This document shows positions 15,125 to 54,200 of a DNA stretch of 64,000 nucleotides, piece by piece. How positions within the stretch are numbered: position 1 is the stretch's first letter; each line of letters begins with the position of its first letter. The notes under the pieces were generated by a model. That model was not told the origin of the DNA, ran no database searches, and was given only the letters and a program-made list of their open reading frames with translations. The DNA comes from Ischnura elegans. Its lineage: Eukaryota; Arthropoda; Insecta; Odonata; Coenagrionidae. The position numbers were made by a program, and so were the translations under genes. The stretch lies in the NCBI RefSeq assembly GCF_921293095.1, contig NW_025791658.1, positions 6,944,001 through 7,008,000 of the forward strand. The letters are read 5' to 3'.

Positions 15125-15292
15125 ATGAGCCTTACTACCGCTATATTCTCGAATATGTCGGAAAGGAGTTCTACAGCTATCCTATGTAGGCTTTGTATGC
15201 TGAAGAATCACAGTAATTTCAACATATTCACATCAAAGGTGGCCAGCCAAATGACCGTGGAGGATGCCCTACATGATTTAATCGGTTTAAGA
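15125..15292 (+). CDS. Exon 1: first half of ZAD
   Basis: 56 codons containing the CRLC zinc pair (residues 21-24) and the helix region ending ...ALHDLIGLR. The donor is AAGA|GTAAGT at 15293, phase 0. An in-frame GTG lies at 15083, but ATG at 15125 or 15155 is the likely eukaryotic start. ZAD proteins usually begin close before the first cysteine pair, so both are plausible. Confidence 0.85.
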
Positions 15293-21200: not shown

Positions 21201-24200
21201 CATGGGTAATGAATAATATAACAAAAACGTGCATAAACACAATTAAATGATAATGTGCATTTTTTACCCCTTAAGTGCCCAGATGTATCTTAAGATACGT
21301 GTAGGATTAAGTACTATGCAAATGTTAGAGATTTTTAAAAATATTTTTTCCCGCATCAGGTATGATGTGTAATCATAATTTAAGCAAAAAAAGTAAAATT
21401 TTTATAAAAAAATCTTCTGGGCATTAATGTGTTAATGAAAAAATACAACATGAAGTTACTATTTTAGATGTCAGCGTATTTTTTTTTTCATTTTACTATA
21501 AAGGAATTAATAGTTGCTTTCAATATGCTAACACATTGCATAAAGGATAAATTTGTTTATTTCATCAATATAAGTTCGATAATGCGGTCTACACTCAAGC
21601 TTATATAACGGCTCATGGCACTAAGAGGATTAAAACTTAACTTAATGTAACTTATTTATTTAGACTTGTTTTACGGGCCGATATATCGGTTCTAGCTGGT
21701 TGTGTGAAAACTGCCACTACTGACTTATAACTGACTCATTTGACTTTTTACATTTCGTTATTGAAGCCTTTTCAATGGCAGCCATCTCATTTATACACGT
21801 GTGCTTTATCTCTGCTGCTTACTTAGATAGTTTCACCGTAAATAATAAAATTAAGTAGACTAAATTATTTAAAGTCTGAAATCTTGCAAATTCTGGACCT
21901 CTTGGATCTCGTTTAGGTCTGAAGAACAGTGCGAACGAACGAAGCTCTCGGAGTGAGTTTTACATGAGCACATTGTTCAGTTGTCATATCGTGGAACTGC
22001 GATTGAAGGGAATATCACAGTTAGTTTAAAAATAAACAAAATCTAGTTTTATGAAATAGCCGGAGCACCGGAAATGATTTGGTCTTGGTTTTTTTATTTT
22101 GCATAAATATTATCCATCATATTCTCTTCCTGGCCAAGATCTGGAGCATTACTAATTTATTGTCTTTGGAAGGAGATGAGTTGTTATTAACTGTAACTTT
22201 AGCTACAGAGTATCGAATGGGAGAGGGCAGCTGATGATTAGTTTGGGTCCTTTGCTGAGAATGTAAAGGTTGTGTTGAAACGGTCCCAATTTTTAACTTT
22301 TAAGTCATATTATTTGTAGGATTTGTGTCCTTAAGATCTCCCTGCCAAATTTTATTTCCAGCATTTCCATAGATTTTGGGTGATTGAATGACAGACATGG
22401 AGATACGTCTGTGTTTTATAGTATAGTAGTGAGATGATTTAAAAAATCCTAATTCATCAACATTAAGAGCATCAGTTATTTGTTGATTTTGGTTGGGTTG
22501 AGTTTTTTTATCAGTGTTACTTTTTCTACAGAGTATTCAAGGAGAGGGGTCAGCTGATGATGAGTTGGAGTCTCGTGATGAAACAAACGACTGCATTCGA
22601 GATGCGACTGAAGGCTCCTCACAGCTCAAATGCTCCGTCCAAAAAACTGAAATATACATTCCTGTGCAAGACTGCCAATCACCAAGAGCCAATATGTTGG
22701 TAATTTTTATTCTCATCTGCAGTGGAACCTGAATTGAAAGAACTTCAGTTGGTCAAATTCACAGTTGTACTACAAAAGTGGAAGGTTTTACAACCTTCTC
22801 TCAATTGTACGACTGTCTGTTGTGTGATATGAGTTAAAAATTATCATGTATGGCCTCCCATTGCTCAAGTAAAATACAAAGAAAGGCTACGCTATTTGTC
22901 ATAAACCACTACGAGCGTACAGACAGCGTTACTCAGATGTTAAGATCATTAGGCTGGGAGCCACAGGAGACTCGAAGGCTGCGCACTAGGCTTAGATTGC
23001 TTGAACAATTGGGAATGGATATCTTTAAAAGCGATACAGAGAACATACTATTAGAGGCCCCCTATATTTCCAAGTACCATAGAAGCGATAATTTAAGGGA
23101 AATGTGTTGTGGAACGGATAGATATGGGAATTCGTTTTTCCCCTAAATCATAAAGGATTTCAATAAATGCTAGTCATAATATTCTTACAGCACTTCACTA
23201 TCGCCAGGCTCACAGATTTCACTATCGCCAGGCTCACAGATTTCACTATCCCCAGGCTCACAGATTTCACTATCGCCAGGCTCACAGATTTCACTATTGC
23301 CAGGCTCACAGATTTCACTATCGCCAAGCTTAAATAAAGTGCATGTTGACAATATTTCAGGATAAGTGTACATTTTTGCGAATTTTGCAGTAAAGCTAAT
23401 TGTGTCACTTTGGTACTGGGTTTTAGTGATTGGTGTGGGGGATTATCATCAGTGAAAGAAAATACATTGTGCTATGGGGCCGCACTGCTCTGAGTTGAGA
23501 TATCAACACACGACGACGTGTCCCGAATCAAATGAAATGAGGTTTTTTTTGGTGATCATATCTTATACTGGACTAATGATAAAATATGGTTTGTTATGTT
23601 CGGGACCATGCCAATTGACGAGCTCTGTTCTGAATGTGTTAACGCAGATTTTTCATTTAAAATAATCTATTTTGAATCTATTGAGTGACACCAGGCATTC
23701 TCTTCTAGTTTTCTATGAAAGAGGAGATAGAAGACGACTTTGATGAAGGGCATAATCCTGTGCTGCGCACGACAGATCCTTCTGGAACTTCAAGTGATGC
23801 CAGGGATCCTTTGGCCAATGATGATTTGGTGAGTTCAATTTTGCTTTGTTTATCAAAGTTTTCTATGGAAGCAAGACTTGCTCGTTGATAGCAGCAGGGA
23901 AGTCCAGAGTGGAAGCATTCGAAATTTGATGCTACCGAAGAATGATGAAGATAAAATGGATTGACCGTGTAAGTCATGAGGAAGTGCTAGGAAGAGTGGG
24001 AGACATGAGTCTTTTAAAGTCTTTTAAAAACCTTAAGCAGAAGATCTACTTGGCCACATGATGAGGCATGATGGCCTGATGAAAACAATCGTAGGTGGAA
24101 TGGAAGAAGGACAAGATACGGCTCCGATTGAATTACGTAGGATAGGTTATAAAGGATGTAAGGGAGAAGAAAAAAGTAGTTATGAAAAGGCTTGCAGATA

Positions 24201-27200
24201 GCCTAGCTGACCCGGCAAACTTCTTACCGCATAACAATCAATCAACTTACAGTTTAGTTACACCATTTATAAATCAAGAGCGGCTGTATCATTTTAAATC
24301 ATATTTATTTTATTGTAATAAAATAAGAATACAAATTCAATAAAACTACGTGAATGAGTATCAAATTTGCTTGTCAGAAGGACTTTCTTTATTGAATCTA
24401 CATAGGGTGTCTCGGAGCACATACAGGCGGATTTTTTTCGATGAATTTTCTTACGTTTTTAGCTTAAGAAATTTTGGGCATTGTGGTTTTATGAAGCAGT
24501 TAATGAAATGAAAATTATACGCATTCAGTCGTTGACTATTTGTGTTACAATCGTAGGTGGAATGGAAGATGAACAAGAGATGGTCCGGAATGAAATATGT
24601 AGGATAGGGTATAAACGATGTAAAAGAGAAGAAAGATGTAGTAATGAAAAGGCTAGCGGATAGGAGAGAGGAATGGAGAGCTGCGTCAAACCAATCTTAG
24701 GACTGTTGACTAATTATGATGATTTTGAGGACGTGCAAGTAGCACTCTTTGATCTACAGTCGAGTTGAAAACTACTCGCAAGAATCGACGCAAGTATGTT
24801 AATTTCTGGACCAGGCAATACAACAATGGATTCTCCAACATATTCTCTTTTTCCCAATACCCTTGTAAAGAGGGTAGTTTCCTTCATCAAAGAAAAGGAA
24901 AGGCATTGATTGCGATTCGTTACCCAACACTAGTGTATTGATAATATACAAATTATTTGGTTTTAGAAATCCCAGTTAAGACGAATGTTGATGGCCAATT
25001 TTATCCTCATTTGAAAAGGGCCAGATTGGCGCCCATGCGATGCCACTCCACGTGGCGTCACAGGGACCTAGTTTCTATACGAGTAGATAGGAATTTTTCA
25101 TCGTCTGAGATTACCAATGCATTCATGAGGCACGGAGCTCAGGGAAACATCTCATAATAATCGCACATTAAAAATAACTAAGTTCGGAAAGTTTCCTTTG
25201 CTTGACAGGGGAATAATAATCCTTATTTAAGCCAAGCGCTACCAGCTAGCAGCCTGCGTTGTTGTTCTAGGAGAGAGAGGAATGGAGAGCTGCGTCAAAC
25301 CTATATTAGGATTGTTGACTAATTATGATGATGATCAAAGTTTTGCTTTGAAGCAAATGCATTCTTCAGAGAAACATCCCCCTTACCAGAAACCCTTGTC
25401 TCAAAAGCAAGCATAATAGGGTGGTTTCCTATTATTTTTTTGTTGCCTAAATTGTAAGATTATTACTCTTGGAGTACGCTTGGATTACCCTATCGAACGA
25501 AGGATACTTACCGACCTTAGGCAGTTTTAATGGGTAATTTTTAAGAGATGTTTCCCTCATGCATTAGAAATACATCCCTACACTATTCAGACTTCTTTAC
25601 ACTATTTGTTTTATTGTTTAAACTATTTGTTTTAGTGTATTCCACATTTTTTGGGGTCTCTGCTATTGAGATATATTGAAAGAGATGTGCATGTTCTGTT
25701 CTAAATTGGGTATATGCCTATAATTAACATTATTATTCTTAAAGTCAATTTCTTGTTCATAACACCTGCAATTTTCTTCACTGACTAGTTGTGTGTCCTT
25801 CTTTCTGGCTACTCTATATAATTTCCACATCTTCAATATCATGACCTCCTCTGAAAGTTTTATATTTGCTGTATCTATCCTTCATTGTTTCCAGAATAAT
25901 GTGATTTTATCAATTCCTACCTCATCTAATTCTGATTGCCCTCTTTCGCATATCTATAACACTTTTTTATTGCGTTATAAAATTTATCATACTCCAGATT
26001 TCAGTCACTTTCTCTGCTGTCAATTGAGAGAGGAATGCTGGAGAGAGAGGAATGGAGAGCTGTGTCAAACCTATATTAGGATTGTTGAATAATTATGATG
26101 ATGATCAAAGTTTTGCTTTGAAGCAAATGCATTCTTCATAGAAACATCCCCCTTACCAGAAACCCTTGTCTCAAAAGTAAACGTAATAGGGTGGTTTCCT
26201 ACTATTTTTTTGTTGCCTACATCGAAACATTATTACTCCTGGAGTACACATTTCATGCTCTTAGATTTTCGAATGACGATATCTATTTTTTGGGATTGAA
26301 CGAAAAGTGAAAATTTTCAAGCGCGCGACAGCTAAGTATGAATGCTGGGAAAAGTCCATGTGACATATTTGTGGTTCCAGCTGTCGCCCTGGGAGGTGAC
26401 CTTGGGGTAAGGTTTTGAGGGCTGATATGATGCAGGCTGCAAGTAGGTAGCAGAGTACCCTGCTAGCAAGTAGCTCTTGGCTTAAATAAGGATTATCATT
26501 ACCCTATCAAACGAAGGATACTTTCCGAACTTAGGCTATTTTAATGGGTGATTTTTAAGAGACGTTTCCCTGAGCTCTGTGCCTCATGTATGCATTGGTA
26601 ATCTCAGACAATGTAAAACTCCTATCTACTCGTATAGAAACTAGGTCCCTGTCACGTCAAGTCGAGTGGCATCGCAAGGGCGCCAATCTGGTATTTTTCA
26701 AATGAGGATAAAATTTGACCCTTGCCATTCGTCTAAACCGGTATTTCAAAAACCAAATAATTTGTATATTATGAATACACTAATGGTGGGTAATGAATCG
26801 CAATCAATGCCTTTGGTTTTCTTTGATGAAGGAAACCACCCTATTGGCCTGCAATTTCCAGCCATGAGTGGTCATCCTTATAAAACGCAACACTCCTAAA
26901 CTCTTAGGCAAGGCTCGACTGCATAAAACGCGACGCGTAAGTAGGAATGATGGGAAAAAGTCTGTGGGACGCATTTCTGGTTCCCCCTCCTGCCTTGTGA
27001 GGTGACCTTGATCGAGGCTCTGAGCGCTGATAGGACGCAGGATGCTAGCGGGTAGCTGAGTACCTTGCTGGCTGGTAGCGCTTGGCTTAAAAAAGGTTTA
27101 TTAATACCTTATCAAACAAAGAAAACTTTCCGACCTTAGCCAGTTTTAGTAGGTGATTATTAAGACATGTTTCCCTGAGCTCTGTGCCTCATGCATGCAT

Positions 27201-30200
27201 TGGTAACCTCAGACGACGTATAACTCCTATCTTCTCGTATAGAAACTAGGTCCCTGTGACGTCACGTGGAGTGGCATCCAGGGTCGGCTCTAGGATTTCC
27301 TTGAGGGGGGGGCGCGACGGGCTGCTTACCCCGTGCCGTACTATGTGCCTCATGCATGCATTGGTAATCTCAGACGATGTAAAATTCCTGACTACTCTTA
27401 TAGAATCTAGATCCCTGTGACGTCACTTGGAGTGGAATCTCATGGGTGCCAGTCTAGCCTTTTTCAAATGAGGTTAAAATTGGCTGTTGCCATTCGTCTA
27501 AACTGGAATTTTTAAAAACAAATAATTTATATATTATGAATACGCTAATGGTGGGTAAGGAATCGCAATCAATGCCTTTCATTTTTTTTGATGAAGGAAA
27601 CTACCCTATTGGCCTCCCCCTACTTTATTGGTATTTATAAACAGGGTGGTCTTGGAAGTGTGCGTGAATTTTTAGTCCCTGGGATTATTCATGAATTTTT
27701 TCTGTAATTTAGAATTTCAAAGATTTGAAATTTATGTACACATTTTTTTCAGTGTATTGATTGTCTTTTAAATTGCCCTGAGTGAAAACATTCATTCATT
27801 ATATCCGAATGAACTCATTCATTTATTATATCTGAATGAACTCATTCAACTCTTTTAATTATGATGAATGTCTTGAGGTGACAAATTAGAAATTCATGTA
27901 AATTAAGTGTAAAATATCTATTATTAAGTTTTAGTCTTTACATTAGGAATGTAAAACAATGCATCGTTACAATGTTGTTTAAAAGTATAGATGTGATTTA
28001 GGGTGTTTTCAAATTCTTTTCGATCGCAGTTATCAGTGGCGGATCCAGGATAAGGACAAGAGTGACGGGTTAGTGGGGGATAAAATTCCAGCAGTGGTGG
28101 GGGCCGGAACAAATTACCATTCTTTCGAGTGCAAATTGGATATGCCAGGGAAGGGCTTTAACCCCCTCCGCATGAATCCGCCACTGGCAGTTATCATGTA
28201 AGACTCCACCGGAATTTTTTTTAAATTCCCCTGGAAAACCTGGAATTTTGCATGAATATTTTTGCTTTGATTGGCTGGATACCCTCATAAATGACCTATT
28301 CTCTCAAATTTTCTGTGAAAAAATTTATTTGCTCTCAGCATTCTCATTTATTGCAAAATTCTTTATCACTTTGACTATGAGATTTTACTATCAAATGTGA
28401 ACATTGTCTACGGGTAGAACCTAGTGTGGGGAGTGGGACATTGGAGTAATTGCATGGTGGTACATTTCTTGCATAGGCCGTCTAACTAATCCCTTGTGTA
28501 TGCAGTGAATGGTGTCTTCATAGAGGTGACAAATGAAGTGAAGTATCTGGGAGTTAAAATTATTAAAAAAGTCTATCATTGGGAGCATATGCATGTAAGA
28601 AACTTTTGTGGCAGAGACCTGAAGAAGACAGGATTTGTCAAGCTTGTTGTGGGAAGATTGTCAGATGAAAAAGTAAATAAGAGGTGCTAATTCATTCTCA
28701 TCCACTCGTGCCTCTAACATGCAGCCAGAATATTGAATATGGTGGTGAATGACCTAACCAGTGAAATTATGGAAGTACAAACAAAATCTGCAAATAATTG
28801 TCAGAAATTGCCATCGGCATAAAGAAATCATTGCACAGATGCTAAAAAAAATTAGGCTGGGAGCCATTAGAGACTTGGTTGATGAGTACTAGGCTTACAC
28901 TGCTTATGCAATTGAGAATATCTTTTAGAGCATCGCGGATAACATAATTTTAAAACACCACTACATATCCAGGCCTGACAGATACAGGAAACTGAGGTTG
29001 ATATTTTGCTGGAGAAATAGGTGTGGGAATTTCTTTTTCTGTTGAAAAATAATGGACCTTTACCCTTAGGCCGTGGGAGCACACGATTTTTGCTACCAGC
29101 TTCTGCGGGAGAGAATCAAGAAATATTTTTCCCTCTAGCCTGGCTGAGTGTCTAGTAAGGAGTGAACACTTGTAATCTGGTGCAACCCTTCCTTCTTTCT
29201 TACTAGCAGATGGGCCTACATTTGGGCACTTGTTGTAGGCCTATTAACAACGTGGAGCGGGAATGACAATACAAAATGGGTAGTACGACAGCAAATACTG
29301 GGAGGAACGCCCTGTCGAGAGGGATAACTGTTGATGGTATGATATCAATTCAAAGTCGTCATCAGTAATAAAATAATAATAATAAATATGTCAAAATAAG
29401 TTTAAGGCGACAAACATTGACACCTTTTGTCAACAAATCTGCATGGCCATCATCCAACACCCCTTTCAAAAATGGTAAATAAGGACAAAACTCCAATAGG
29501 GTAGTTTCCTTCATCAAAGAAAACCAAAGGCATTGATTGCGATTCCTTACCCACCATTAGTGTATTCATAATATACAAACTAGCTGCGCTGCGCGCGCTT
29601 GTTAAGGGGCTATGCCCCTTAACAAGCGCGGTTCCGGCTTCGCCGTCTACTTTTGTGGTCGTTCGAAGACTTTTGAAGTTCGAATAATCTCACCTCAACT
29701 AGGGGCCGGCTTCGCCGGCCAGGGGGTAGGGAGGCGCCCCACTCATTCCTCGGAACGGCTTCGCCGTTCCTCGCTGAAGGGCGGCTTCGCCGCCCAGGGG
29801 TTGAGTGTGCCCCCCCGGGGCTACCCCGCTTAATACTCGGAACGGCTTCGCCGTTCCTCGTCTGGGGTCGCCATAGCCGCCCAGAGGGCTAGGGCATTTC
29901 GGAACCGTTTCACCGTTCACTCCCATGGGGGGAGTCCACAGCGGCTGCGCCGCTTGAACATCGGGGCGGCTTCGCCGCCCGAGGGTTACTGAACCTCGCC
30001 TACGCCAGTTACTCCTCGGAACGACTTCGCCGTTCTTCGTTGAGGGGCGGCTTTGCCGCCTTGGGGTTGAGGAGCCCCCCGCGGCTGCTCCGCTTAATCC
30101 TCATTAATGCTCTTCTCCCCCGAGAGGGGTGCCCAGGGGGATTCGGGGGTTTTAATGTGTTATGCATGCAGTCACCAATCGTCCACAGTGATCACGTAGC

Positions 30201-33200
30201 GATGATTGTAAAGGGTAGTGCAATTCGGAGTAATAGCTGCGACAAGTACCCATAAAAGAAGACTTTATGGTAAGTTTTTCATTTTTTTCGGGAGGTTCCA
30301 ACGGAATACCGGGGGTTTTGTACTTGTGTTAAACCAGTGGTCACAAATCATTCTCATAAATTCCGTGCCGATAAGTCCTAGGGGTCCGGAACAGTGGTCT
30401 GACGAATCTTTTACCTGGAAAGGCGATTTATTACAATTTTTGGTAGGTTTAACGGGGTTATCGGGGGTTTTAATAAGTGGTAGGGGCACCGGTTAAATTG
30501 TGACGAAAACTATTCGGAAAGGCGACTTTAAATCTTTTTTTCGGCGATGTTCCAGGAGGCGATCGGGGGTTTTATGGTAATTTTTCCCCTATGGTTTACG
30601 GTGGCTCGGCCTTACCAAATATTCCGGATCTAGAGCTCAGAGGGGACAGGTAGTGCGGCGTAATGTTTGCGAGAAGTTCCCAAATAGGAGACTAAATGAC
30701 ACATTTTACATTTGGGGGGATTTCAGGGGGATTCCGGGGGTTTAACTGTGTGTACTCCTGGTGTTCACCATCCATTTACATAAATTCCGTGTGGATGAGT
30801 CGTTGGGGGTGGTGGAATAGTCACGAAAAGTACCCAAAAAGTAGACTTATATGCAAAATTTTTTTTTGGGGGGGTTTTTGATGGTTTACCGGGGGTTTAG
30901 GTTCTAACTGTATGCGGTCATCAATCGTCCACATCAATTCCGTAGCGATGAGAGGTAAGGCTTGGGAGAGCGGCGGAATCGTGACGAAAAGTACCCGAAA
31001 AGGCAATTTATATGCAAATTTTAATTTTTAGGGGTTTTCGAGGGGGTTTAAAGATGACGATACTATATGGTCATATTCACTTACTGTCATATCTAAAAGA
31101 GGAGTTCCTTATGACATCCATATTTCGAGAGTAATACAATAAAAAGCAAACCAGTCCCTGGAAAAAGTGAGTAGTGCCCGCCATTTTTATTTTTTCGCGG
31201 TTAAATCGATTAAATCATTTATTAAATATTTGTGTTTTCTGAAATACAATGCATAGTTGTATGTAACTGCAGAGTTTGAAAGAAATCGGTCGGGATAAAA
31301 TTGACAAAACCTTGTGTTAATCTTTTGGAAATCGTAATTTTCGGTGATTTTCGGAAAACTTTAATTTTTTTCTGAGTAACCAAGCACGATGAAAGAAAAT
31401 TGTTACCTACGTTTTGTAGGCGATATTATGAGCATATATAATAATCATTTTCGTTATCCAACACCTTAAATTAAGTCGAGGGGAGGGGAAGGTATGAAAT
31501 CTTTTTCGAAAAATCAATTTTTGACGCCAAATTCCCGACCACTTCTAGAAGAGCTGGAGAGCTGAAATTTGGCACGCGTGCGGGGAACCCGAAATGATCC
31601 GGTGGAAAAATCCGAATACAGGAAGTTTCAGCCACGTGTCGTCGCTGGGACGACAAAATGGCCGAAATCGCGCTTTTTTCGGGGACCCTCTTTCGGTTTT
31701 AATCTTACTGCGCGCGAACTGTGCGTACCACAGGGATCGTTAATGCTTTTTTTGAAAGCTGATAAATGTGGGCACGTAATTAAGTAAATTATTTAGTTTC
31801 CATTTGAGAAAATTGCAGCCAAAATGGCGTCCAAAAATTGATTTTTCGAAAAGAGCCCCCTAGATGAGGTGAGATTATTCGAACTTCAAAAGTCTTCGAA
31901 CGACCACAAAAGTAGACGGCGAAGCCGGAACCGGGGCAATTAAGGGGCGGAGCCCCTTAACGAGCGCGCGCAGCGCAGCGAGTTTTTACTATGTATAGCG
32001 CTGAGCTGTCAATGGAAAGAGTAGAAAAAAGGCCCATCTTATGGAATGTCTTGCATGGTAAATACAAAAATCCAGATATTTTAAGGCTGAAGCGACTTTT
32101 AATTTTCTTCGTGTCACAATAGAGAGCACCCGAACCCTCCTTTGATGGGCATTTTTATAACAATGTCGTATGATAACGTAATGACCTGTCGTAAGGGAAA
32201 TGCTCTAATTGCGCTTGGCTGTATAACGTTTTTCCACCTTGGCAAGCTACGTGGGCTGTCTGCATCCATGTGAAATGGGCCTAACTCATTCCTTATGGAA
32301 GAATAATATTCACCAAATTCAGAATGTGTAATGCAATGAATTTTGTGATACAGTGGACTCTCGTTAATACGAACAACGTTATTACGAAGTCCTCGTAATT
32401 ACGAAGCAAATCGTTGGCCCCGACAAGCTATGGTAAAAGAAACGTTATTACGAAATTACGAATCTGTCCTGGTCCCGGGGGTTACAAAATGAACTTTATT
32501 ACGAAGTTCCAAGCATGAGCTACGGCATTTAAGTGGATATTCTCTACGTTAAATTTTATAATGGCGCCACAAGTTTTTCTCTTGCTATGTACCCAAGAGT
32601 GTCAATTATGGTTCTTTATTCAGTTTACACACAACATCATTTGATAAGCTTCATTCCTCACGAGTCATGGTGACCCACTTATAACCGCTCGTAAATTGGA
32701 CGTATAGTTAGTCCTCTTCCGACACACATTTGATTTACGAATTATCAGAGATACGAGCATTCAAAATTTTCAAATTTCAATTTTGGCACCTTTCGATTTG
32801 GCCGTTGCTATGCGGTGTGGCGCTGGGGAACTCTCACTGTGGGAACAATCTGAACAAACTATCATTGAATCCGGTGTGAATTTAGGAACTGCTCAGCGTT
32901 TTGCCCAATCTCCGTCACCGCTGGGAGCTATTTTTTCTGCTCCGGATGCGTCGCACCCCCGGCTAGAGCAATACGTCACAATGGTGAGTTAGCGCATGCG
33001 TGTAATGCAGTGTTGCATTCAGAAGGGTAACCGTACTCTTCGATTCCTAGCATACAGTCCGGCCGGTGAGAGTTATCCGATGACAGCACAATGGGAGGGG
33101 TGGATAACCCTGGGCCAGCACGATTTACAGCCAATCACTCTACCGCAAACACACCTCACATCCTCGTCTAGTCATACTACGATGTTAAATGCATAGGGAG

Positions 33201-36200
33201 CGCTGAAATAAAGCTGATCCACCAAAACAAGTGATTCTTCCTCTGGGTCCTTCACGCTCATCGTCCCTTCCAGTTCATTTCTTCACGGAACCCTTTGTAG
33301 GTATTTCCCTTTCTTATCGGCAACCTTGCCCCCTACCCTGACCTAGACCATTCTGTCTGTCATCGGACAGCTCTCGACGGCCGTAATGTAGGTTTATCAG
33401 CCTAGGAACAAGGTCTTGGAACGTATCTAGTTCGTACATTGCACTTAATGTATTCGGGAAGATATCAACCCTCGATTGCGTCATGCCGCGTGCTTCTGTT
33501 GAGAAACTGAAACGAATTTTCCTGTGTACACATATTTCCGCGTAATTTAATCGCAGTTATAATATACTTTTGTATGATTCCTAAAAGAAACGTTTAGACG
33601 AATTTCGTTATTACGAACCTCCGGTTTTTCAGTCCCGTGAAATTCGTAATAACGATAGTCTACTGTAACCATGAATAGAATTTATTGGGCGAATAGGGTG
33701 GTTTCCTATTATTTCTTTATTACCAAAATCGAAAGAGCATTACTCCTGGAATATGTGTTTTACGCTTTTAGATTTTTTAATGACGATATGTATTTTACGC
33801 GATTATATGAATAGTGAAAATTTTGAAGCATGCGAAAACGCAATGGCTGAGTATGAAAGCTGGGAAGCCCGTGTGTCGTCGTTCTGGTTCCTGCTGCCGC
33901 AAGTGAGGTGACCTTGGGGCGAGGATATGTGCGCCGCTGAGATGCAGGCTGCTAGCAGGTAGCAGAGTACCCTGCTAGCAGGTAGCGCTTGGCTTAAATA
34001 AGGATTATTAATACCTTATCAAACGAAGAAAACATTTCGACCTTAGCCAGTTTTAATAAGTGATTATTAACCTGGATCGGCCGAAAATATTTTTTTGAGA
34101 TTTATAATTGATATTCTAGGGAAATGGTAAGGGTCTCATTTTTAATACATTCTGAAAATATTACGTTGATCGGTTATGTAGTTTCCGAGATACAGGCTGT
34201 GACATAAATGTCACATTGGGCGGATCTGTTGTCTTTTGGTGCAAGGTAATATTTCCCCAGAAAAAGCAAATATTTTTCGCATTTGAGCTGCACTGTTCAT
34301 TTAAATTATAAAAAAGACTAGAACAACATATTATTAATTACGTACAGTATTTTCAAGCTTTTGTTTTAATTTAAAGTAAATTGTTTAAAAATTTAACAAT
34401 AATTTTCAGAGTTCCATTGCCCGCTATTCATAATTTTCGATGTAAATTGTGATGTTTTAAGATGTACAAATTTTCTAGATTTTTTCAATTTTATTTCACA
34501 AATGTGGGGTATATTTAAATTTATAATGTTTATATTATAAACTTGTCAAATACATATCAAGAAAAATTATTTTAAATTTATGTTAAGTTTCCAGCAGGAG
34601 TGTTATGAAATTACAGAACGTTGAATTGACACAACCAATGGATTTGTTGTTAAATAATATTTTTACATGGCTAATAAGTAAAACAGTTGAAAATGCATTT
34701 CTCAATTTTGGAAAATGCATAGAATAAATATACATGTTTGAAAAATATTTTCACAACACATAAGAGGGTAATACAGTATAAAATTGAATGAAATTTGAAT
34801 CAATTTGTTTCAAATAAACTAAAGATTGATTTAGAGTTCAATGCCGGCGTATACGTACCATTTTGAGTGGTAAGTAGTAAAGCAATATTCGTTCTTATTA
34901 CATGCATTGCATACAGTAAATTTGACGGAAGCGCAATGTTCTCCAGCACGGCGACGCCATCTTTTTTTACAGTAAAACAGAGACTTATTGATCATTAGCA
35001 TCGTAACATATTTCACTGTCTGCCTCTGTTGAAAATGAAGTAGTACGGCGGCTATACTTGGCTTTTCATCGATGTATGGTCAGTTATGTTTGCACTATTA
35101 CACGCCTAATTGTGTCATGCAAGGACCAAATTTCGCTTGTGAACAGATTGTGAACAGCTTCAGATCGTGAACAGCTAAATCCAAAAGCCAAGGAAAAATA
35201 TTCCACCACCAAAACTGATTGTCTTCCGCCGAATGAATTGCATACAAGGATGGATACCAAAATACGCAATCATACTCCTGCCAAAAGAGAGTTTTCTCAG
35301 TGAGAAAAATCCCCCTGAAACGTTCACCTGCAAACCTGCAAAACAAGCTCCACTCTTGCCCGAGGTTGTCTTCCCGTTAAATTTTCCACAAGTCCACCAG
35401 TCTGGTTATCTGCAATGTCCTCATCAGTGACAATTGCTTCTTCTGATGGCTCAAGGTATATTGATTACACTTCGTCAAAGTCTTCGTTTTCCGGAAGTTA
35501 TTTGGCTTCACACAGTGTAATATCTCTGAGCTATCGATATCCCAATTATTAAAAATTTTAATTCAAAAGTAATTACCGGAATAAAATTTAATAAATGCAA
35601 ATTTATCGATTAATTGATAAATAATAAATATTTTGGCGGGAATATGAAGGAAAAAACGTTGAAAATGCGATAAATTCTAACTAGAGCATAAAATTCGAAA
35701 CTTTGAAGATTTCCATAGGGATCCGCCCAATGTGACATTTATGTCACAGTACCATTTATCAGAGAATATTGCAGAAATGGAAAGCAATACCAAACACATC
35801 GATGTACCAAAAATTGTCGCTGTAGCGCATATAGGTAATGAAAAACTTAAATACACAAAGCAAACGTCCATTTTTAAACTCTAGGGAAGGCAGCTAAGTA
35901 CCAGGATTGCTTAAAAGATATGCCTTCACTGTAACATGACAATTCTTACCTTGAATTGAAGCACTTAGCTTCCTCTTTCTAATAAGGTATAAAGCACAAC
36001 AATATACCGTGCCCCAACGATGCAAGAGCCATTACAGTGGAACGATACAGGGTGTGACATTTTTGTTACATTGGGCGGATCCAGGTTAAGACATGTTTCC
36101 CTGAGCTCTGTGCCTCATGCATGCATTGGTAACCTCAGACAATGTAAAACTCCTATCCTCTCGTGTAGAAACTAGGTCCCTGTGTCGTCACGTGGAGTGG

Positions 36201-39200
36201 CATCGCATGGGCGCCAATCTGGCCTTTTTCAAATCAGGTTAAAATTGACCATTGCCATTCGTCTAAGCTGGGATTTCGAAAACCAGATAATTAGTATATT
36301 ATGAATACACTAATGGTGGGCAAGGAATCGCAATCAATGCCTTTGGTTTTCTTTGATGAAGGATACTACCCTATTGGGGTTTTGTCCTTTTTTACCAATT
36401 TTTAAAGGGGTGTTGGATGATGGCCATGCAGGTCTGTTGACAAAAGGTGTAAATGTTTGTTGCCTTAAACTTATTTTGACCTATTTTGGTGAACAATTAG
36501 CATTGAGTGAAATAAAATGTGCTGGTTTCATAGAACAGATGAAGTCAACATTTTCCTGCTCCATCCACCAATGTTGACAATGACTACTGTCCCTCAACAA
36601 TCGCCTTTATTGGCCATTATGTCTCAAGATGTGGCCTACTTATTAGGTATTTCCTCCTGCTTTCTAAGGTGCATATATCTGTGAGCATTGTGAGCCCTTT
36701 CACAGCCATTGCCATTCTAAAGCCTGATTGATATTCAGCTAAGATATTATTTTCTCCCTTGCTTATTGCAGTTCACGTATGTGTGCAGCTGCACTTGATA
36801 TATATGGATGCATGTATCACAGTTGTCAAACTTTGGTAACTTTCTCCGTTAAAACTACTCTGGATAAAATGCATACGCCATGACTTTGCGAGGCCACAAG
36901 AAGAACTGCTTCACTTTATTCATAGGTGGCAGCACAATACATAAAACAAAATCCTCACTTAATGCCATTTCAACTGAATGAATATTTGAATTACTAACAC
37001 CTCTCCTCATTAAGCTTCATCTGGCTTGATGTAAAGGCAGAATAATTTTTAGTTTTAAGTATACTGGGACTATCCACAGTGATAACGTTACGGGAGTCAC
37101 CTGCAATGCGCAAATTGTGCCAAAAATCCATGGAGAAAAATTCATTCATCTCGATCAGGATTTGAACCCAGATCCCCCCATTTATAATCAAGTGCTTAAG
37201 CCAGTTAAGCTACTGAGGCGTCATTCCTCCCTGTGGATATTTGAGGACACTACCAGACAAAGTGGTCAAGGCAAATGAATTTTTGTCCGTGGATATTTCG
37301 CACAAAGCAGAATACATAACTTTGTTTGCCGTATCTTTCCGCTTTTTTGTTTAGTCCTCTGCCAAGATTTGTTTACAAAAGGAATGTGAAAAATATGCTC
37401 ACCTCTGGTGACATGCGTATGAATGACACCGTTTGTGTTTATTAATTTGGTTAAGGAATCTGGTGGCATTAGCCTAATTTTTATGTTATGAATAAAATTT
37501 AATACTTCAAATTCCAACATCTAATGTTTTCATAATATTTATCTTTTGTTTGTTTACTGGGAACAATTCACTGAATAGGAACATTTCCCCATTTAAAGTA
37601 TCAATGATTGAGTTAGCCTCAGAATCTTGGCAAATAATGACAGTATCATATGCGAATAAATGATATTTGCAATTCCTCATTGTGTTCCCTATGCCATTCA
37701 TGCACAATTGTCAAACTTTGGTAGCTTTCTCCATTAAAACTACTGTGGATAAAATGAATATGCCATGACTTCACGTGGCCACAAGAAGAACTGCTTCACT
37801 TTATTCCTAGGCAGCAGCACTTTACATAAAACAAAATACTCAATGTCATTTGAACAGAATGAATATTTGAATTACTAACGCCTCTCCTCATTCAGGGATT
37901 ATTTTAACAAAACTATCTTTCTTAAAATACAAAATACACTAAGTATGTTAATAAAGATTCAATGGCATGCATTAAACAAATGTCTATCATCTACAATGAA
38001 GTAAGTATGATCCACAGTACTGACATTCTGTGCACGCCTTTTAACCTTAGCTTCTGAAAGGCTCATAGTAAAAAAATGTACAGTATTGTTCTCTGATGGT
38101 ACATACTGGAGAGAAATTTCACCTTTCTTAACAGCTTCCCTAACATAATTTAATGTTACAACAAAATGTTTGCTTCTTTCCTTTACCATATCATTCTTAG
38201 CAATAAATATAGCACCTTGGTTGTCACAAAAAATCTTACAGTTCTGAGGGATAAGCCTGTCTTGTTTTACCTCACAAAAGAAAGATATCATCCACTGAAT
38301 CTCACACAAGCATTCATAGACAGCAATATACTCAGCATGAGTGCTTGAACTTGCAACACATTACTGCTGCCTGCTTTTCCATGATATTGCACCTCCTCCC
38401 ATGGTAATGACATACCCTGTGATGGATCTAGAATCAGATCTATCCCCGGCCCAGTCCGAATCACAATAGCATGAGAACCTTCTCCCCTTTGGAAGAGCTA
38501 GCCATTGAAACATTGGCTCTGACTGAATGGCTCACCTGGTGGGAATGACTTATTTGTTCGGGGTTTCCACTCAACCGTGAAAACCGTAAATAAGCCATGA
38601 TTTAGTCTACCGTAAAAAAAACCTGGAAAAAGCCGTGAATTTCGTCATAAAACCTTTAAAAAATCTCTCAAACTTGATTTTAGAACTACGATTGAAAGAG
38701 CAAAAGAAAAATTGATGTGTCGATCGTGTTTCAAAGTCAGTCATGCGTAAACACTGTCCAGGCATTTATCTGCACACGTATATTCTAAGCGCAATCATCG
38801 GTCCGTGTGCCATAATGACGACACATTGACCTTGAGCCTGCACCAAAGCTAGACGACTGGTAACCAAAGCGTTCACTAACCCTGCCTAAAACTCTGACAC
38901 TTCTTAATTTCCCTGGCACCGTGGTCCCTCCATTTTCCCGTTCACAAACTCAAGCAGGAGCTGAATTTTGCCAGCAACGTCAAGAGAGGTAGCACTTTCA
39001 TTGCTATGTTTGCATTCATGGCGCCTGTTGCATTTGTTAAATTTTTAGTTAACCTGCGGCCGACGATCATTATGCGATCAATATTTCTGCCTGAAATAGT
39101 TTGTCTATAGTCTGTGAATTTGACGACATCTACACCGTGAAAACCTGGAAAAAACCGTGAATTTTATATTTCAGTTTTGGTGGGAACCATGTTGTTAGTT

Positions 39201-42200
39201 GATTTTAATGGAGGTGAGCTGTTTATCACTTCTACTTTCTCCACAGAGTATCAAGGAAGAGAAGACAGCTGATGAAATGTCTGGGTCTTCTGCTGAAACA
39301 AAGGAATTCATTGGAGATTCAAGTGAAGGAACTTCAATGTTTGCATGCTCTGTTCAAAGGACTGAAATATACATTCCCTTGGAAGACTGCCAATTGCCCC
39401 AAGAGATTATGATGGTAAATTTTGTTCTCAATTGCAATTATACCATTGCATTTCTGCCTTCAAATGAAAAAATTCTGGGTTGCACGACGGAAGTGCTTTT
39501 ACTTTCTCCACAGAGTATCAAAGAAGAGTTGACGGATGACGACAATGCAGAGTCTTGTGCTGAGAATATAGAATGCATACAAGAAATGACTGAAGGAACT
39601 TCACCGATCGCGTGCTCAGCTCAATCGACTGAAATATTCAATCCCGTGCAAGACTTCCAATTACCCAGAGTCAATATTATGGTAAGTTTTATTCTCATCT
39701 GCAATTATACGGTAGTGTAATGGCCTTCAGTTGAACAAAATTCTGGGTTGTACTACAGAAGTGGGTTTTCCTAGAGCATACGTACAGGAGTAGCTTGGTT
39801 TTCAAAGATTGACGTATTTTTTACGCCAGCACGCCCAGTCCATGGTTATCAACTTTTATTTCATCCTATTTGTCAATTGAAATTATATTTGGGAATGGTT
39901 TTTCTAGCACATAGGTACTGTGTAAGTACACTCCCTTTGGAGTAATGTGAATTACAAGTGTTCGAGAAATAAGGCATTTTATAATCGTTTTGTGTTCTTA
40001 TTAATTATGTCTGTACGCATATTGTTGCTCGCCGCGAGCCTTTAATGGCATGTGCTCTCACAAGAGTGGTTTTCATTTATAAAGTGGAAGTTGGTCAGTA
40101 TATGCAAAGAAAAAATTAAAATTTAAGCACATACCAACCCTTGTAGTCATCGTAACTCTGTGTTTGAAATGACACTGCTGAAATGCCTAAACGCCATTAT
40201 GATGATAAAAAAATTGTCTCATGTCTATGGTTGCTGCAATTAAAATAAATGATAAACATGACGCCGTATGATCACAATGAAGACAACAAAGTATACTGCC
40301 ATGACGAAGGCTTGAACCCTGGCCCCCAGGGTGGGAGTCATATATGCTACCACTACCCCACCTATCCCATCTGAAGATGGATGATATTTTGGATTTATAT
40401 ATGGCTTGTGAAAAGTACCGCATGAAAATTAATTAATTACAGCCTAACGAAGGCCCATAAGGAACCACTACTAGTTCAGAGATGTGCTCACCATTCCGAA
40501 GGCCATAAAAAAAATACGGCATTGAAAAAGGCGGAGTAAGGTACGTGGTCTCCCCTTGTTAGCCTTAACACCTCGCGTTTCTATGGAGTGTTGAACCTGT
40601 TCTCCTTTTTCAAAAATTTTGTGACCATAAATACATCAAAGTTTGGTGTACCATTTATAAATCGTTGGAATTTTCCTTCTCCCAACCAAGATTTACTTTT
40701 CTTGAACCCATCCAGGACAGCGAACCACTGCAACAACCAGCCAGAATGGAAATAAGGCTAACATCCCATGATTCTAGTTGCGAAGGACGAACGTTCTGGC
40801 CGGCGTGAATACATACGCAATGAATAAGTCTTGCAGAAAACGTCTGAATTAGATTTATTAGTTTGACTCAGTTCTTCCAAAAAAAGTTTTGGCATGATAA
40901 GCGGCATTGTGCCAAAATATACCCAGCGAAAAATAAATACCATCATCTATTTATTAAAGATTCAATGTGCTATTCGCACTACTGCTTCCAAACTTGAAGT
41001 TGACACTTAAATGAATATTAATGTATATAATGCAATGATGAAGTCATGGACTCAAAAGAGAAGCAGGAGAAGCAGCCACATATATATTCTGAAGATATTT
41101 TATGACAGCAAAAAATGGATATCCTCAAATTCAGTAATTTTTCCATGCAATAATAGTGGCAGAACTAAACGGCGTAGAAGCTGCCTTCTGCTACTTCTGC
41201 CCTCTGCCTTGTGACGTCACGGCCAATATTCAACATGGACACCCGTTTTAGCGGCCTTTGAATTTTTCCATATTTTGGACGGTTATCTCGAATCAAGTTT
41301 TCACTATTAGGATTTAAACTGTGGTTTTACGACATTATGTTATTCTGAACTCTAATTTTAAAAATGTGTTTGGTGCATTTGCAACACTAGTGTACTTCCC
41401 TATTCCTTTATATATTTAATCCTGCAATGGGTTTATTTGGTGGTAATACAAGAAAAACTGGTAATTTGATAAAACCCTACTATAGCCCTTGGGCATAAAG
41501 GTATTTACATTTATAAATATCTCATTGAAAATGTAGATAATGCAAATAGTACCATTGTGCAGGTAATCAACCACTTACTTCTTTTATTCATGTCCTTCGG
41601 GCATAACCAGCATAGACCTTCTCTTACAAGGTAAAAGAGGCCTTGAGTGACAGGGCACAATGCACGATTAATATCGCTTTAACATTTTTTGTCTTGAAGA
41701 TCCATGCTGCTTTGATGAATACTAATACACTGAATGCATTAAACAAATGCTATAAGTGTGAGTCGTAGATCACAAAAATCCTTCTTTGAAACCAATTTAT
41801 ATTTGTTAGTCAATGAAATCAACTTATTCTTATATAAGCCGTTCCAAATCTCCCCAGACAATCCCCTTTCTTTGCTTCAGCTATGCCTTAACAACTCAAC
41901 ATATTCACAATATGCTGTCCAGTAATAAAATAGCAATTATTTTTCCAATCAAAATCTTTTCCATAGTTTCCTAATTTTAAAAATTATATCAACTAATTAT
42001 ATTGATCCCTGAATTATTGTAAAATTCAAGTAAACAAAGCGAAGTATACAAGGCTTAACTGTAGCTTTGAGGACCATAAAATGTTTCCTTCATTTCTCAC
42101 CTCTCATAAACAACCTTAGTGGCTTTAGTTTTGTAAGTTCAAGAAGGCTACATCTCAAGCATAGGCGGATCCAGGGGGGGGGGCACGGGGGCACGTGCCC

Positions 42201-48200: not shown

Positions 48201-51200
48201 TTAATTCCAGGATACAAATTGTGAACATTGAAGTCAGAGTTGCAACGTAATGATAGGCAGTCCGTTGTAAATAGATTCTTATTTTTATCTATTTTGAGGG
48301 GTTTAGTTCACCTTATTTTCCGTCTTCTTAGCACCCTGTTATCAGCTCTTATCCCGTTAAGTTATCCTTTCTTATCTACAGTCTTCCAATAATTAAGCAA
48401 ACTATTCTTAGGACATCGCTTGCGGTTGATAATAATTTTCAAAGCATTTTACCACACTCATGAGGGCTGTTTACATTACTATTTTCATTGCCTATAACTA
48501 ATTATCCGGCCAATTCTGCGATAAACGATATGACGAAACTGACTACTTCAATTCAAATACTTGTATTATCATTAAAATGGGTCCATCAAAGCAAAGGCAT
48601 AACAAAATCTGGCATAAGGAAATTCATAATAACGCCAAATTCCTCTCATGTACAAGTTTTTATCCCAATTACTCACTGTAATCTTAGGCGGCTAATCGCA
48701 TACATATTTCCAACGCACTCACCTTCAACATTAATATACACGTTGAGCTCTCACTTATATTTAAAAGTGTACAACATACTTTTCATTAATCAACGCTATA
48801 ATTCATAATAGCATTGCACTTACCAGCTGAATCTCGCTCTATTTTTGTTTGTCGAGGACAATTGCATGCCGATTTTCTCTGATTGGCTCGCAGTGACGTA
48901 TTGCAGGAAAACTTCGGGTATCTTCGACTTCCCCACTACCGCGGAGGGGAAGGCACGAAAATGTTTTCGTGAAGCCTACTGAATAGCAAATTACGCGTCT
49001 TCGAATGTTTACGCGGCGTAACCACGTAAACGGAATCTTTCGTCTTCGCGACCGCGTAAAGAGTTACTGAATAGCCCTGCAGGTCGTGCGCATGGCGCCA
49101 CAGCCGGAGAGCAAAGCCCGAAATTTGAACACTAGAGGTGTTCGCTCTGGACTTATGAAAGTATACCGGTCAAGGCGAATGATTTTTCCTCTGTGGATTT
49201 TTCGCACTATTTGTGCATTGCGGGTGACTCCGTAAAAAGTTATCACCGTGGCTAGTCCCGGTATACTTTCATAATTAATATTTTGTTGGAAAGCGTCTTT
49301 AGTCGTACAAAGAGGATATTTAAGCACTTTATTTTTCTAAAATTCATTGCGTTATAATAAATGACTATTCAAGTAGTTTCTGAAGGCGAACGCAAAACAA
49401 ATGAAATCCAGTTGTTATTGGAAATATCACTCATTTCATCCTCTAAATGCTAACATTTTTATAGATGTTATCAATAATTAGAATAAAATAGTGGTTAATT
49501 TCTTGTACCCCAATCAAGCAGTACACATATAATGTACTTTGTAAATTGGAACCAATTGAACCCCGAAATTTCGTGCGCCCACGGCTGGAGCGCAACATTT
49601 ATTTACGGGTATCTTTCAGCAGTCAGTCTCCTCCTAACTATTTAGGGGAACATCTTAGCATCGATTGCTATCGCAAGAAGAAGTGAAACAGCCTAGGAAA
49701 CCCCAAGAGTAAAACGTCGAAATGCAAGTGACGTTACGTCTACATTTGTCCGAAGTGTTTTTTTTTTGCCCCTTTTTTTCAAGCGACCAGAAAACCCTTG
49801 GATGTGTAGTTTCTGAATTAGTATGAAAATCTGTTGTCAAATGCCGACAAATGCAACTGATAGTGAAGGAGGGAGCACAAATGATGACAGAAGTGATGTA
49901 GTAGAAGATCTCCCCAGGCAAGAACAATTATTTACAGGAGAAATCGCTATATGTGGTCATGAAATGAGCCAAAGAGGAAAATTCGTATAACCTTCCATAA
50001 CACCGATACTCAGAAACCCGGTTTGAAGGATTACATAACATCACTATGTAGGGAGAGCCTCTTGATTATAAGTCTAAGATTTTTTATTATTAAATTTTAC
50101 AATTGAACACGTTAGAACGGCCAAAAAAATAAAAAGTCTAATGATTTTGCATCATCCAAAGGACACACATCGGGATCTTCATTTTGCGAATTCTCGGCGA
50201 ACAAGACTGTAATATCCAATTTCCCCAAAATATATGAAGCTGTTTGCTTATTTTCATTTATGCAGTACAGGGTGAGTGTTGATACAGAGTCAGGGAAACC
50301 AGAAGTAATTGCCTTTTACTACGCACCTAGAGATGGCATAGATACTTAAGACAAAATGTACTGTAGATACAATCTGGGAGGTCACCAATGGCAGCATTTT
50401 TCAGAATATTAAATATTTCCTTTGTCAACTCTTTTGTGCTTCAGCAGTCTGAGAAAGATAAGGAAGATATGACACGATTTGAATGCATTAAATCAAAGGC
50501 GGAGATATCGTCAGACTCCATATGGGAAAGAGAATGTCAAATGTAAGGCTCCCGAGACTGGTAGGATAAATTTTTGCACAAATCTCAGTCTACCGAAGGG
50601 AGAGGCTGAAGGAGTTGAAAGGTTTGAGATGCGGACAGTGTGTAGACTGTTCCCTCCTTTACAAAAACACCTCTTTCTTATTTTTCTAATGTAAAAAGCC
50701 TGAGTGCGCTTTTGTGAAAAATTGTAATTTTGATCGCCTGCAGAATGCATCGAGAAAAGGATTAAGCGGGATACATTCTTTGGCTACTTTCTACTTAGTC
50801 TTCCAACTTTAACATTTAAGGCCTTATTTTTAAATCTGGCAAAATATTTACACATGAATATAATAATTTTAAGTCAAGTGTTTGTGGCATCAGTTTTTGA
50901 TCCTGTTTCAAATAAAAATATTTACTGACAAATTGGTTCGTATCAGGAATGTAAAAATTTTAATGTAAGTTTTACAATATTTAAGCATTTAAAGAAAAAT
51001 TAAACAAAGCAATAAAAATGGCATTGCAACATTTTATGAATTTTTGATTTATTGCGGCCTCCCAGTCACTGGTAGTGTAACAAGAATGGCACGTCACTGT
51101 TTAAGGGTTAAGGTTGGTCCTAAGAATCTCAGGCATACACAGTTTCGACCAGCTTGAGTGGTGTCTGGAACAGGACAAGGTTCTATTATTATGGATTAGA

Positions 51201-54200
51201 GATGTTACCATTATTATATAGCTTTTATTGAGCGACACTCAACATTCCCTTTTAGTTTAATGTGAAAGAGGAGAATGGAGAGCTCCTCAATGAGGAGAAT
51301 TATCCTGCATTTAACTCACCGAATACAGTTGGCATCTCAAGTGATGCTGTAGACCCCCTGCTAGGTGATGATGAGGTAAGTGCACTTCTACCATGCTAAC
51401 TTCATTTTTCTGTCACGAAAATTCATTCCTCTCTTTAACTTTAGTGACATCATTCAGTAGAACACTCATTTTTTGTCTCCCAAGGTAATGTAATCTGTCC
51501 CTTTTGTTCATTACCTACATGTTTAACTTTTGGTCCTGATAAAAGAGTAATCTACATTTATTTGTCGATGAAGATGTCATAAATATCAAACTAGTGTTTG
51601 CTCTGACTTTAAAATTCTTTGTTTGGATGTGCATAACGTTCATCTGGGGAGAAAAGAGTGGGGCATAGGAGTTAATGTGAGTAAATCCCTCTTAACTGAT
51701 GGGGCTGGGTCTGTGAAAACTTTACATTATTGGCACTTGAAGCAACATGCATCCTTTGCATTCACTGTACCAAGAGCTGACCAGGACAGATGTGAACAGA
51801 ATAGAGTTTTGAAGCATTAGTGGCACTCCAGTGGCCAACCAATCCCAAGAGGAAATTGCATAACTTTAGCCATAACTTAACTTTTCTTCTTTCAAAATCT
51901 CCTCCTTCCTGCTAAAGATTCTTTCGTGTGCATTATCACACTTATTGTTCCAAAATGATAATTTCATTTTTCTCTTCGTACCTCCGTCTAACAATGGCCT
52001 CACCAATATTGCTTGCCATAATCTGGTGGTAGCATTAAAAAAACTGTTATGCATAGGGTATTTTCCGTCATCATAGAAAATGAAAAGCATTGGTTGCTAT
52101 TCGTTACCCACCATTAGTGTATTCATAAATTTTTTCGTTTTAGAAATCCCAGTTTAGACGTATGGCAATGGTCAATTTGAGTTTTACATCATCTGAGATT
52201 AACAATGCATGCATGAGGCACAGAGCTTGGGAAAACATCTCTTAATAATCACCTATTAAAACTGCCAATGGTCGGAAAGTTTCCTTTGTTTGATAAGATA
52301 TTAATAATCCTTATTTAAGCCAAGCACTATCTGATAGCAGGGTACTCTGCTACCTGCTAGCACCCTGCATCACAGCGGCTCACTTGTCATCACCACAAGG
52401 TCACCTCACATGACGGCAGCAGGAACCAGAATGATGCCACATGGGCTTTTCCCAGCATTCATACTTAGCCACCGCATTTTCGCGAGCTTGAAAATTTTCA
52501 CTTTTCGTTTAATCACTAAAAATAGATATTCTCATTTAAAAATCCGAAAGTGTTAAATGCGTACTCCAGGAGTAATATGCTTTCAATTTAGGCAATTAAA
52601 AAATAAAAAGAAACCACCCTATTTGTGTTCAGATGATGGTGTAGGCCTAAGGTGGTACTGACCACGGTTAACCCTTATCCAGGCACCTCAAATTTCTAAC
52701 GTAACCGGGTAAGCAGGGCCCAATGGATACTCCTTGTTAATTTTTTCTTTTTGCTCAAGTGGGCCAACCTGCTAGCAAAAGTATCAATGTTTTTTGTCAA
52801 ATAGTGCAAATTTATACTAAATCAATGATATCAAAATATTTTATACTGTTCATAAATGAAAATTTTACTTGTTAATTAATAACAAAAATTTGAAATAAAA
52901 AAAAAATTTTATTCATCCTTCATAAAATTGGTCTCTGGAGGAGATAATTAAAATTTAGAATAAATTAACGTAAGGGATTATTGAATATTATTTACTTATG
53001 TAACGAGACACTGTATAACATCAAAATTTATTGCATGGGGGAAGAAACAAAATTTTATCAACGAGTTCAGGATAGGCTACCCCTCAAAGCTTTTTTCACT
53101 TTTGATTTACACGTTTCGCATCACTATGTTCATTGCTCACCTATTGCTCACAGTTGTTACGCATTTGTTTTTCTTCATAATGTTTTTATTATGGGCATAT
53201 ATATTATCTCATTTTTTTGTTATACTATAATTTGATGAATGTATTGGTTCAGAAATTCCTTCATCAAAAAGTCCTTAGCCTGTGTTCCAAGACAAACCCA
53301 AGTTGGTTCGTCTTTCATTGTGGACCTCAACCAGAATATTGGGTTCACTTTGAATACTGCTTACCAACATTTCAATTTGGATCAGTATTCTTCCACGCCA
53401 CATATGCTGCTACTCAACTCACATCCAAGTCACACATGAAAAACGCAAAATGCCAACTATTTTTGCCTCTTTTACTCATGTGCGTATTTATCAACTGGTC
53501 CAGGAAATCGACTTCACCTTTGGTGCAGTTGTAGTGACTGATAATTTCAGGTTTAGCATTGATGTCTTCCATAATTTTATTATGATGCATGAATCATAGA
53601 AGAACTACTGGCCAACTTTTCATCTTGGGCAATGACACAAACATACCATTTTTGGTGAACCAAACAATGAAGAAATGACTTTACCACTTTTTTTGGCTTG
53701 AAAATTTCCTGGAATAAACCGTTATTACTTTCCTATACTTCCAGCATAACTCAGAAGGCTCTATGCAAACTTAATATCAGAGAAATTTTTGTCACTCGTT
53801 TCATTTTTGTTCGTATTTTGGAATGGTTCAGTGAGGTGCTGTACAACTCTTCGATCCAAACAAGGCAATGCTCTTTATGCCAATATCTTCTTCATTGTAA
53901 CTCTCTTCCAAGACAAACCCAACTTGGTTCGTCTTTCAATGTGGACCAGCCTCTTTGATTGGCTGGTAATCCGCTATCCATCATCACTAGTTTCTTCAAT
54001 GTTCAGCAGTTTTTGTGTGCCATCTTGAGGCAAAAGCTTTCGTCTAGCTATGATCTAATAATTATAAAAAAAAAAATTATTTCATAGAATTTCTCTAAAA
54101 CTACGAATTACTTCCTTAGTACTCATCTATTAGAACTTACCTGGGCTTGTGATGTCTTCGTGAAGGAAACTTGTAAATATTTGCCATCACTCCGAAGGCT

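Follow-up and report, generated by a model that had tools for sequence, protein, structure and literature searches.

Two kinds of phase-0 cassette exons in the linker of a ZAD zinc-finger gene of Ischnura elegans, and its probable mosaic origin

The Drosophila ZAD-ZNF genes code for proteins with an N-terminal ZAD, a linker and a C-terminal array of C2H2 zinc fingers (PMC7655104, PMC9810180). They belong to a very large class of insect transcription factors whose linkers are poorly characterised and often under positive selection; such selection on the linker was reported for six of them, with no known linker motifs (PMC7655104). We analysed a gene of this type, here called W, in a window of 64,000 nucleotides from the damselfly Ischnura elegans (C15:6944001-7008000 in an assembly of 1.72 Gb; the protein models there are named Ischnura elegans). 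W has the same ZAD-linker-finger layout, and its family is, like the Drosophila genes, clustered and fast-evolving, with intron positions common to related genes (PMC7655104, PMC9810180). The linkers differ, however: those of Drosophila are said to vary greatly and to have 'no discernible structural motifs' (PMC7655104), whereas the damselfly linker is a series built from two kinds of exon, A and B, which have near-invariant motifs and are repeated within and between genes. A likeness in layout is also seen in the FiNZ-ZNF genes of fish, where a short Glu-rich single-exon element lies upstream of the finger exon in many genes (684 in zebrafish), although FiNZ is one N-terminal exon and the W family has two exon kinds, varying in number, between the ZAD and the fingers (PMC10547256). 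No description of the A and B exons of I. elegans was found among the best-ranked matches of the open-licence literature searched. Two recognisable exon modules, countable copies, apparent exchange between genes and isoform models that skip exons make linker function testable exon by exon.

W is a single ZAD C2H2 zinc-finger gene and a member of a large I. elegans family. On the plus strand, nine exons in the order ZAD1-ZAD2-A1-B1-A2-A3-B2-73nt-fingers form a chain that is open throughout and codes for 688 aa with a single terminal stop. The ZAD halves lie on exon 1 (15125..15292, with CRLC, ending in phase 0) and exon 2 (15417..15554, with CPQC, phase 0), and residues 20-93 matched the Pfam model zf-AD (PF07776) with 47.6 bits against a cut-off of 28 (E=2e-12). 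The linker consists of phase-0 cassette exons of the two kinds: A1 (22532..22699), A2 (39247..39414) and A3 (39514..39681), each of 168 bp, and B1 (23709..23828) and B2 (51256..51375), each of 120 bp, all phase 0-0. The cassettes are linked by a 73-nt exon running from phase 0 to 1 (56128..56200) with the terminal exon (58081..59024), which carries the linker tail, eight C2H2 fingers and the stop codon. This 73-nt exon was the sole candidate, under the thresholds used, in a search for phase-0-to-1 exons between B2 and the finger exon; the first-pass annotation, which had rightly placed the cassettes in a ZAD-finger gene, did not name it. The C-terminus gave eight C2H2 pattern matches, with PF00096 in 7 stretches, and no Pfam match was found in residues 103-374. 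Judged by the exon coordinates, the gene has long introns, of about 7.0, 15.4 and 11.6 kb. Removing B2 from the chain gave letter-for-letter identity with the predicted protein P0001 (648 aa, database isoform X2), and removing A1 and B1 gave the same identity with P0002 (592 aa, database isoform X3); both are I. elegans models and share the ZAD, A2, A3, the 73-nt exon and the fingers. The in-frame isoforms that the annotators expected of symmetric exons are represented by these two predicted models.

Every AG/GT-bounded stretch that was open in frame 0 and exactly 168 or 120 bp long was collected from window positions 20000-60000. All five exons were recovered where they had been annotated, with their lengths, phases and clean splice borders; in total the list held 14 stretches with a length of 120 bp and 10 with a length of 168 bp. 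Because these totals include chance stretches with the same properties, length and splice borders are weak proof by themselves, and the proof is supplied by similarity. The copies aligned as proteins, as had been claimed, with tblastn E values of 7.5e-15 (A1-A2), 1.9e-14 (A1-A3), 2.4e-13 (A2-A3) and 9.4e-6 (B1-B2). Identities were 70-71% in DNA and 50-52% in protein for the A pairs, and 60% and 40% for the B pair. AG/GT borders and an open frame were found at 30 of 30 fetched genomic A loci, W A1 included, of which 28 were 168 bp and 2 were 156 bp long. Together with the similarity, these matching borders ruled out equal exon lengths by chance.

Judged by the trees, the two ends of W have different closest relatives. 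In a tree of 60 rows with a script-recognised ZAD start, the ZAD of W was X-type: it was 99% identical to that of P0007 (gene X2) and fell into a clade of W, P0007, P0003 and P0008 (support 99), from which P0006, P0009 and P0011 stood apart. In a tree of the 3' linker (41 rows, E <1e-6), the 115 aa of W belonged to a 16-row Y-type clade (support 99) without P0007, which was 41% identical there. The cassettes were compared in two further trees, from which matches below 25 bits or short ones (A <44, B <33 residues) and then identical rows had been dropped, leaving 74 of 78 A rows and 84 of 88 B rows; P0001, P0002 and P0005 were not separate rows. A1 grouped with P0007 and P0008 (97), and B1 joined P0008 (97) and next P0007 (83), all X-type. 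A2 paired with P0003_A1 (97) and A3 with P0003_A2 (100), both lying with their kin in one 13-row group (88), and B2 lay within an 11-row group that includes P0006 and P0054 (97). The Y-type kin of A2, A3 and B2 are P0003, P0006, P0009, P0011 and P0054, and the nearest tree rows of all five cassettes were in other genes. In approximately unbiased (AU) tests, a single clade of A1, A2 and A3 together with their closest kin cost 36 log units and was rejected (p 0.039), whereas A2 and A3 with P0003 as one clade came at no cost (p 0.53).

We propose the following history for W, and put the probability of this structure and history at about 0.6. An ancestral ZAD-A-B-linker-finger gene would have split into X-type and Y-type subfamilies, and on the Y side a tandem duplication of A would have produced A2-A3. 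An X-type ZAD end would have been joined to a Y-type A2-A3-B2-finger end, which the ZAD and 3' parts suggest for W, the neighbouring locus W' and the P0003 gene. The 3.6-kb A1-B1 segment of W would have been exchanged with, and most simply received from, an X-type gene near X1 through recombination between paralogues. Cassette gains of this kind stay in frame because the cassettes are phase 0.

The neighbouring loci are consistent with this history. On the minus strand, from C15 6655383 down to 6630364, W' follows the plan ZAD-A2-A3-B2-73nt-fingers, and no A1 or B1 was found in it by tblastn; a partial copy that runs from C15 6683587 down to about 6677767 consists of A2-A3-73nt-fingers, also without A1-B1. 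Both the A and the B copy seen in P0008 are coded by X1 (C15 6586464 down), which has ZAD-A1-B1. X2 (C15 7030364 up) has ZAD-A1 and codes for the A of P0007, and its B exon was not found within the fetched stretch. In the exons checked at these four loci the splice sites were intact. W and W' aligned at 87-96% in blocks over 14615-22480 and 38980-60471; W 22481-38979 lacked a collinear counterpart in W', the sole matches there being those between A1 and the other A exons (70-74%) and one to a repeat. The segment at 22400..26025 (plus strand), which includes A1 and B1, is a mosaic whose identity to X1, taken in 200-base steps, is 93.5-99%. Up to about 22440, W and X1 were 84-94.5% identical, and beyond that point, as far as about 25900, 93.5-99%; homology to W' ends at 22480 and homology to X1 at 26025. 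Among informative sites of 21432-23186, X1=X2 was seen at 76, W=X1 at 33 and W=X2 at 18 before 22480, against 12, 61 and 11 after it, a shift of closest relative with a Fisher p of 8e-13. The best break was placed at 22399-22408, and none of 2000 permutations gave one equally strong. We infer that the A1-B1 segment was exchanged between paralogues, and a direction from X to W is suggested because W' has no A1-B1.

A decayed A-exon relic, A0 (22209..22290, plus strand, 3' limit approximate, repeat family D9), carries an in-frame TAG in W and sits at the equivalent position in W, W', X1 and X2; it is therefore part of the shared 5' end and dates no event in W. Its presence in the other three loci ruled out a duplicated A-A-B block of which A0 would be the lost first A. 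A read-through fusion of two whole neighbour genes was likewise rejected, the best E value of the plus-strand B1-A2 interval against 79 homologues being 0.063.

Profile hidden Markov models built from the five W exons were run on 79 I. elegans homologue records, including isoforms and partial models. Plain A-B was the usual plan (60 of 79), and 19 records departed from it, W's two isoform models among them, so that the first-pass description of linker growth by exon duplication as unusual overstates the case for this family. The other plans were A-B-B (6 records), A-B-B-B-B (3), A-B-A-A-B (2), B-A-B (2) and, in single records, A-B-A-A and A-A-B (both from W), A-A, A-A-A, A and B-B-B. The two A-B-A-A-B records, P0004 and P0005, are almost alike, and this order in P0004 probably arose separately from W, because its A copies fall in a 29-row group (97) without any W copy. 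Both A/B homologue searches returned only I. elegans (79 of 79 and 21 of 21), which is not evidence of absence from other species.

Most B exons begin with PsiKxE and end with DPL..DD, and the A exons have a near-invariant TEIYIP core. PsiKxE occurred within the first 14 residues of 73 of 84 B copies and 32 of 74 A copies. In B, K4 (79/81) and E6 (81/83) exceeded 4.1 bits, with 26 of 40 columns below 3 bits, and D33 (82/84), P34 (81/84) and L35 (84/84) were also conserved; in A, T39, E40 and P44 were each present in 74 of 74 copies. In a shuffle test on the 61 proteins whose last cassette is followed by a finger, using a motif slightly narrower than that of the 14-residue count, whole B and A segments held 62 and 30 motifs against 2.6 shuffled in each, whereas the rest of the linker held 8 against 15.6, rarer than chance. 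The W exons B1 (MKEE), A2 and A3 (IKEE each) and B2 (VKEE, in the exon missing from P0001) have one motif apiece, giving four in the full form and three each in P0001 and P0002. The pooled ratio of nonsynonymous to synonymous rates (dN/dS) between W and W' was 0.21 over A2, A3 and B2 (12 nonsynonymous and 13 synonymous changes) and 0.51 in the fingers; all dN/dS values given here rest on small counts.

The canonical SUMO site is PsiKxD/E (PMC10672805), and tentatively the cassettes may be predicted SUMO-acceptor modules, their number set by exon copying and splicing, since B and some A exons each bear one acceptor motif; we consider this role less likely than not. Cassette number and skipping would then set the number of SUMO groups between the ZAD and the fingers (four in full, three in each shorter form), and that number might set the strength of partner-protein recruitment. 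A site of this type is found in Bonus/TIF1, a SUMO-modified repressor cofactor of Drosophila, and the authors of that study suggest testing its recruitment by ZAD proteins; Bonus has one main SUMO site and is not termed a ZAD protein there, whereas SUMO on the damselfly cassettes is predicted from sequence (PMC10672805). Much more speculative is a shuffled SUMO cassette system, in which B would be the acceptor and the A core TEIYIPV, with acidic residues nearby, a SUMO-interacting motif, and in which the lineage would tune SUMO-dependent repression by its ZAD-ZNF genes as phase-0 exons are traded between paralogues, multiplied and skipped. The fit of the A core to the description of such motifs in PMC12751080 is only loose, and we regard this system as very doubtful.

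Several observations weigh against the proposed history and its functional extension. Forcing B1 and its kin with B2 cost 18 units and was not rejected (p 0.202), the A-clade test reached only p 0.039 with kin rows picked after inspection of the tree, and the A and B trees used just 56 and 40 columns, so that among their inner branches 39 out of 71 (A) and 44 out of 81 (B) stayed open. Just 5' of the break, identity between W and X1 was 93-94.5%, near the values within the segment, so the step is small. Upstream of A1 the loci W, W', X1 and X2 are 86-97% alike in shifting order; the exchange was therefore repeated and its direction is uncertain. In the B1-A2 interval, remains of neither an X-type finger exon nor a Y-type ZAD were found, and the transcript structure of W is itself a prediction, as given by the models P0001 and P0002. 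As to the motifs, A1 (which starts SIQGEG) has no PsiKxE, and P0025, with three A copies, has none. The motif counts overstate the evidence because related copies share descent, which the shuffles ignore. No constraint was demonstrated by the dN/dS of 0.50 for A1 and B1 against X1 (10 changes) or of 0.89 for A2 and A3 against the partial copy.

The cassettes could instead be mere disordered acidic spacers or activation segments, with PsiKxE and TEIYIP kept for splicing, for another partner or by the youth of the family, and we give this a little less than an even chance. It would account for PsiKxE being present in just 32 of the 74 A copies, for the lack of a Pfam match in residues 103-374, and for the conservation of DPL in B and of T, E and P in A equally to K and E. 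It agrees less well with K4 and E6 standing out from the mostly variable B columns and with the below-chance frequency of PsiKxE in the remaining linker.

As to the history, A-B-A-A-B might be the older state, kept by W, with A1-B1 lost from W' and the P0003 gene, X genes being copies of the 5' half with other 3' ends, and the likeness of W to X1 being pure gene conversion. The ZAD of X2, nearly equal to that of W (99%) and followed by another 3' end, fits such an account, and W' has a 2.76-kb stretch (local positions 73511-76270 on the reverse complement of C15:6560001-6720000) with tandem repeats about 315 bp long, located exactly where homology to W stops upstream of A1, as a scar might be. 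Two losses would be needed against one gain, if the P0003 gene is without A1; none of 40 scored A1 matches, from 432 candidates, lay at its locus (C15:3739982-3762657), which was itself not read. Plain A-B is also the usual plan of the family, and we consider this older-state account unlikely, though of appreciable probability.

In the origin put forward by the first-pass annotation, an A-B block was duplicated once within W, and A then again. The second part stood: a unit of 267-268 bp, comprising an A exon and a short intron, behaves as a tandem duplication arranged head to tail, at 39229-39495 and 39496-39763 (plus strand, repeat family D2). These copies adjoin, their units cross-match the W' counterparts at 75-76%, and W' and the partial copy likewise contain the pair; among the cassettes, a local tandem origin is apparent for A2-A3 alone. 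The in-gene block was not supported as put forward. The A-B-A-A-B order would fit it, as would the alignment of A1 with A2 and A3 into the flanking intron (about 50 bp upstream and 80 bp downstream, 72-75%), and the B test above leaves it standing. However, A1 and B1 side with other genes, and the copies in A1-B1 and A2/A3-B2 are nearer to copies in other genes than to each other. The single A clade was rejected, the ZAD and 3' end disagree in their relatives, W' has no A1-B1 block, and the A1-B1 segment is nearer to X1 than to anything within W. The blastn matches between the two blocks were confined to the A regions and, at B, to 82 bases, 30 of which are upstream intron; the A-to-B introns did not match. 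A single in-gene duplication of an A-B block is thus unlikely, and we give the full two-step scheme very little probability.

That W is a prediction artefact, a broken X-type gene (ZAD-A1-B1) chained to a broken Y-type gene (A2 onward) and rarely joined in real transcripts, would suit the long introns, the predicted nature of the gene evidence and the one model that joins the ZAD directly to A2, but it is highly improbable given that both models share the ZAD, A2, A3, the 73-nt exon and the fingers and that the ZAD-A2-A3-B2-73nt-finger layout recurs in W', where the splice sites are intact and the exons open.

Cassette number varies widely in the family, and other members may suit a study of tandem exon duplication better than W, namely those with four B copies (P0010, P0014 and P0019) or three A copies (P0025); P0004 has A-B-A-A-B. 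Among ten proteins scanned, the ZAD-A-B start was followed in P0034 by a Mutator-like transposase end with one finger, in P0043 by a Tc5 transposase DNA-binding domain, in P0015 by a BEN match under the cut-off and in P0060 by DUF4806; these four may represent fusions between host and transposon sequences, or predictions that were chained together. The ZAD-A-B starts of P0012 and P0015 are almost the same, with one inserted residue, and their ends differ. Within W, the A1-B1 intron holds a 24-bp tandem repeat of 5.7 copies with 95% matches (23194-23330), and the B1-A2 intron has GC-rich short repeats and diverged repeats every about 100-170 bp at 29725-30117 and 30279-31040 (families D12, D14, D15 and D17). 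Transposase fragments matching DDE_Tnp_1_7, which we take to be of piggyBac type, lie on the plus strand at 63024-63320 and 20836-21060, the second under the Pfam cut-off.

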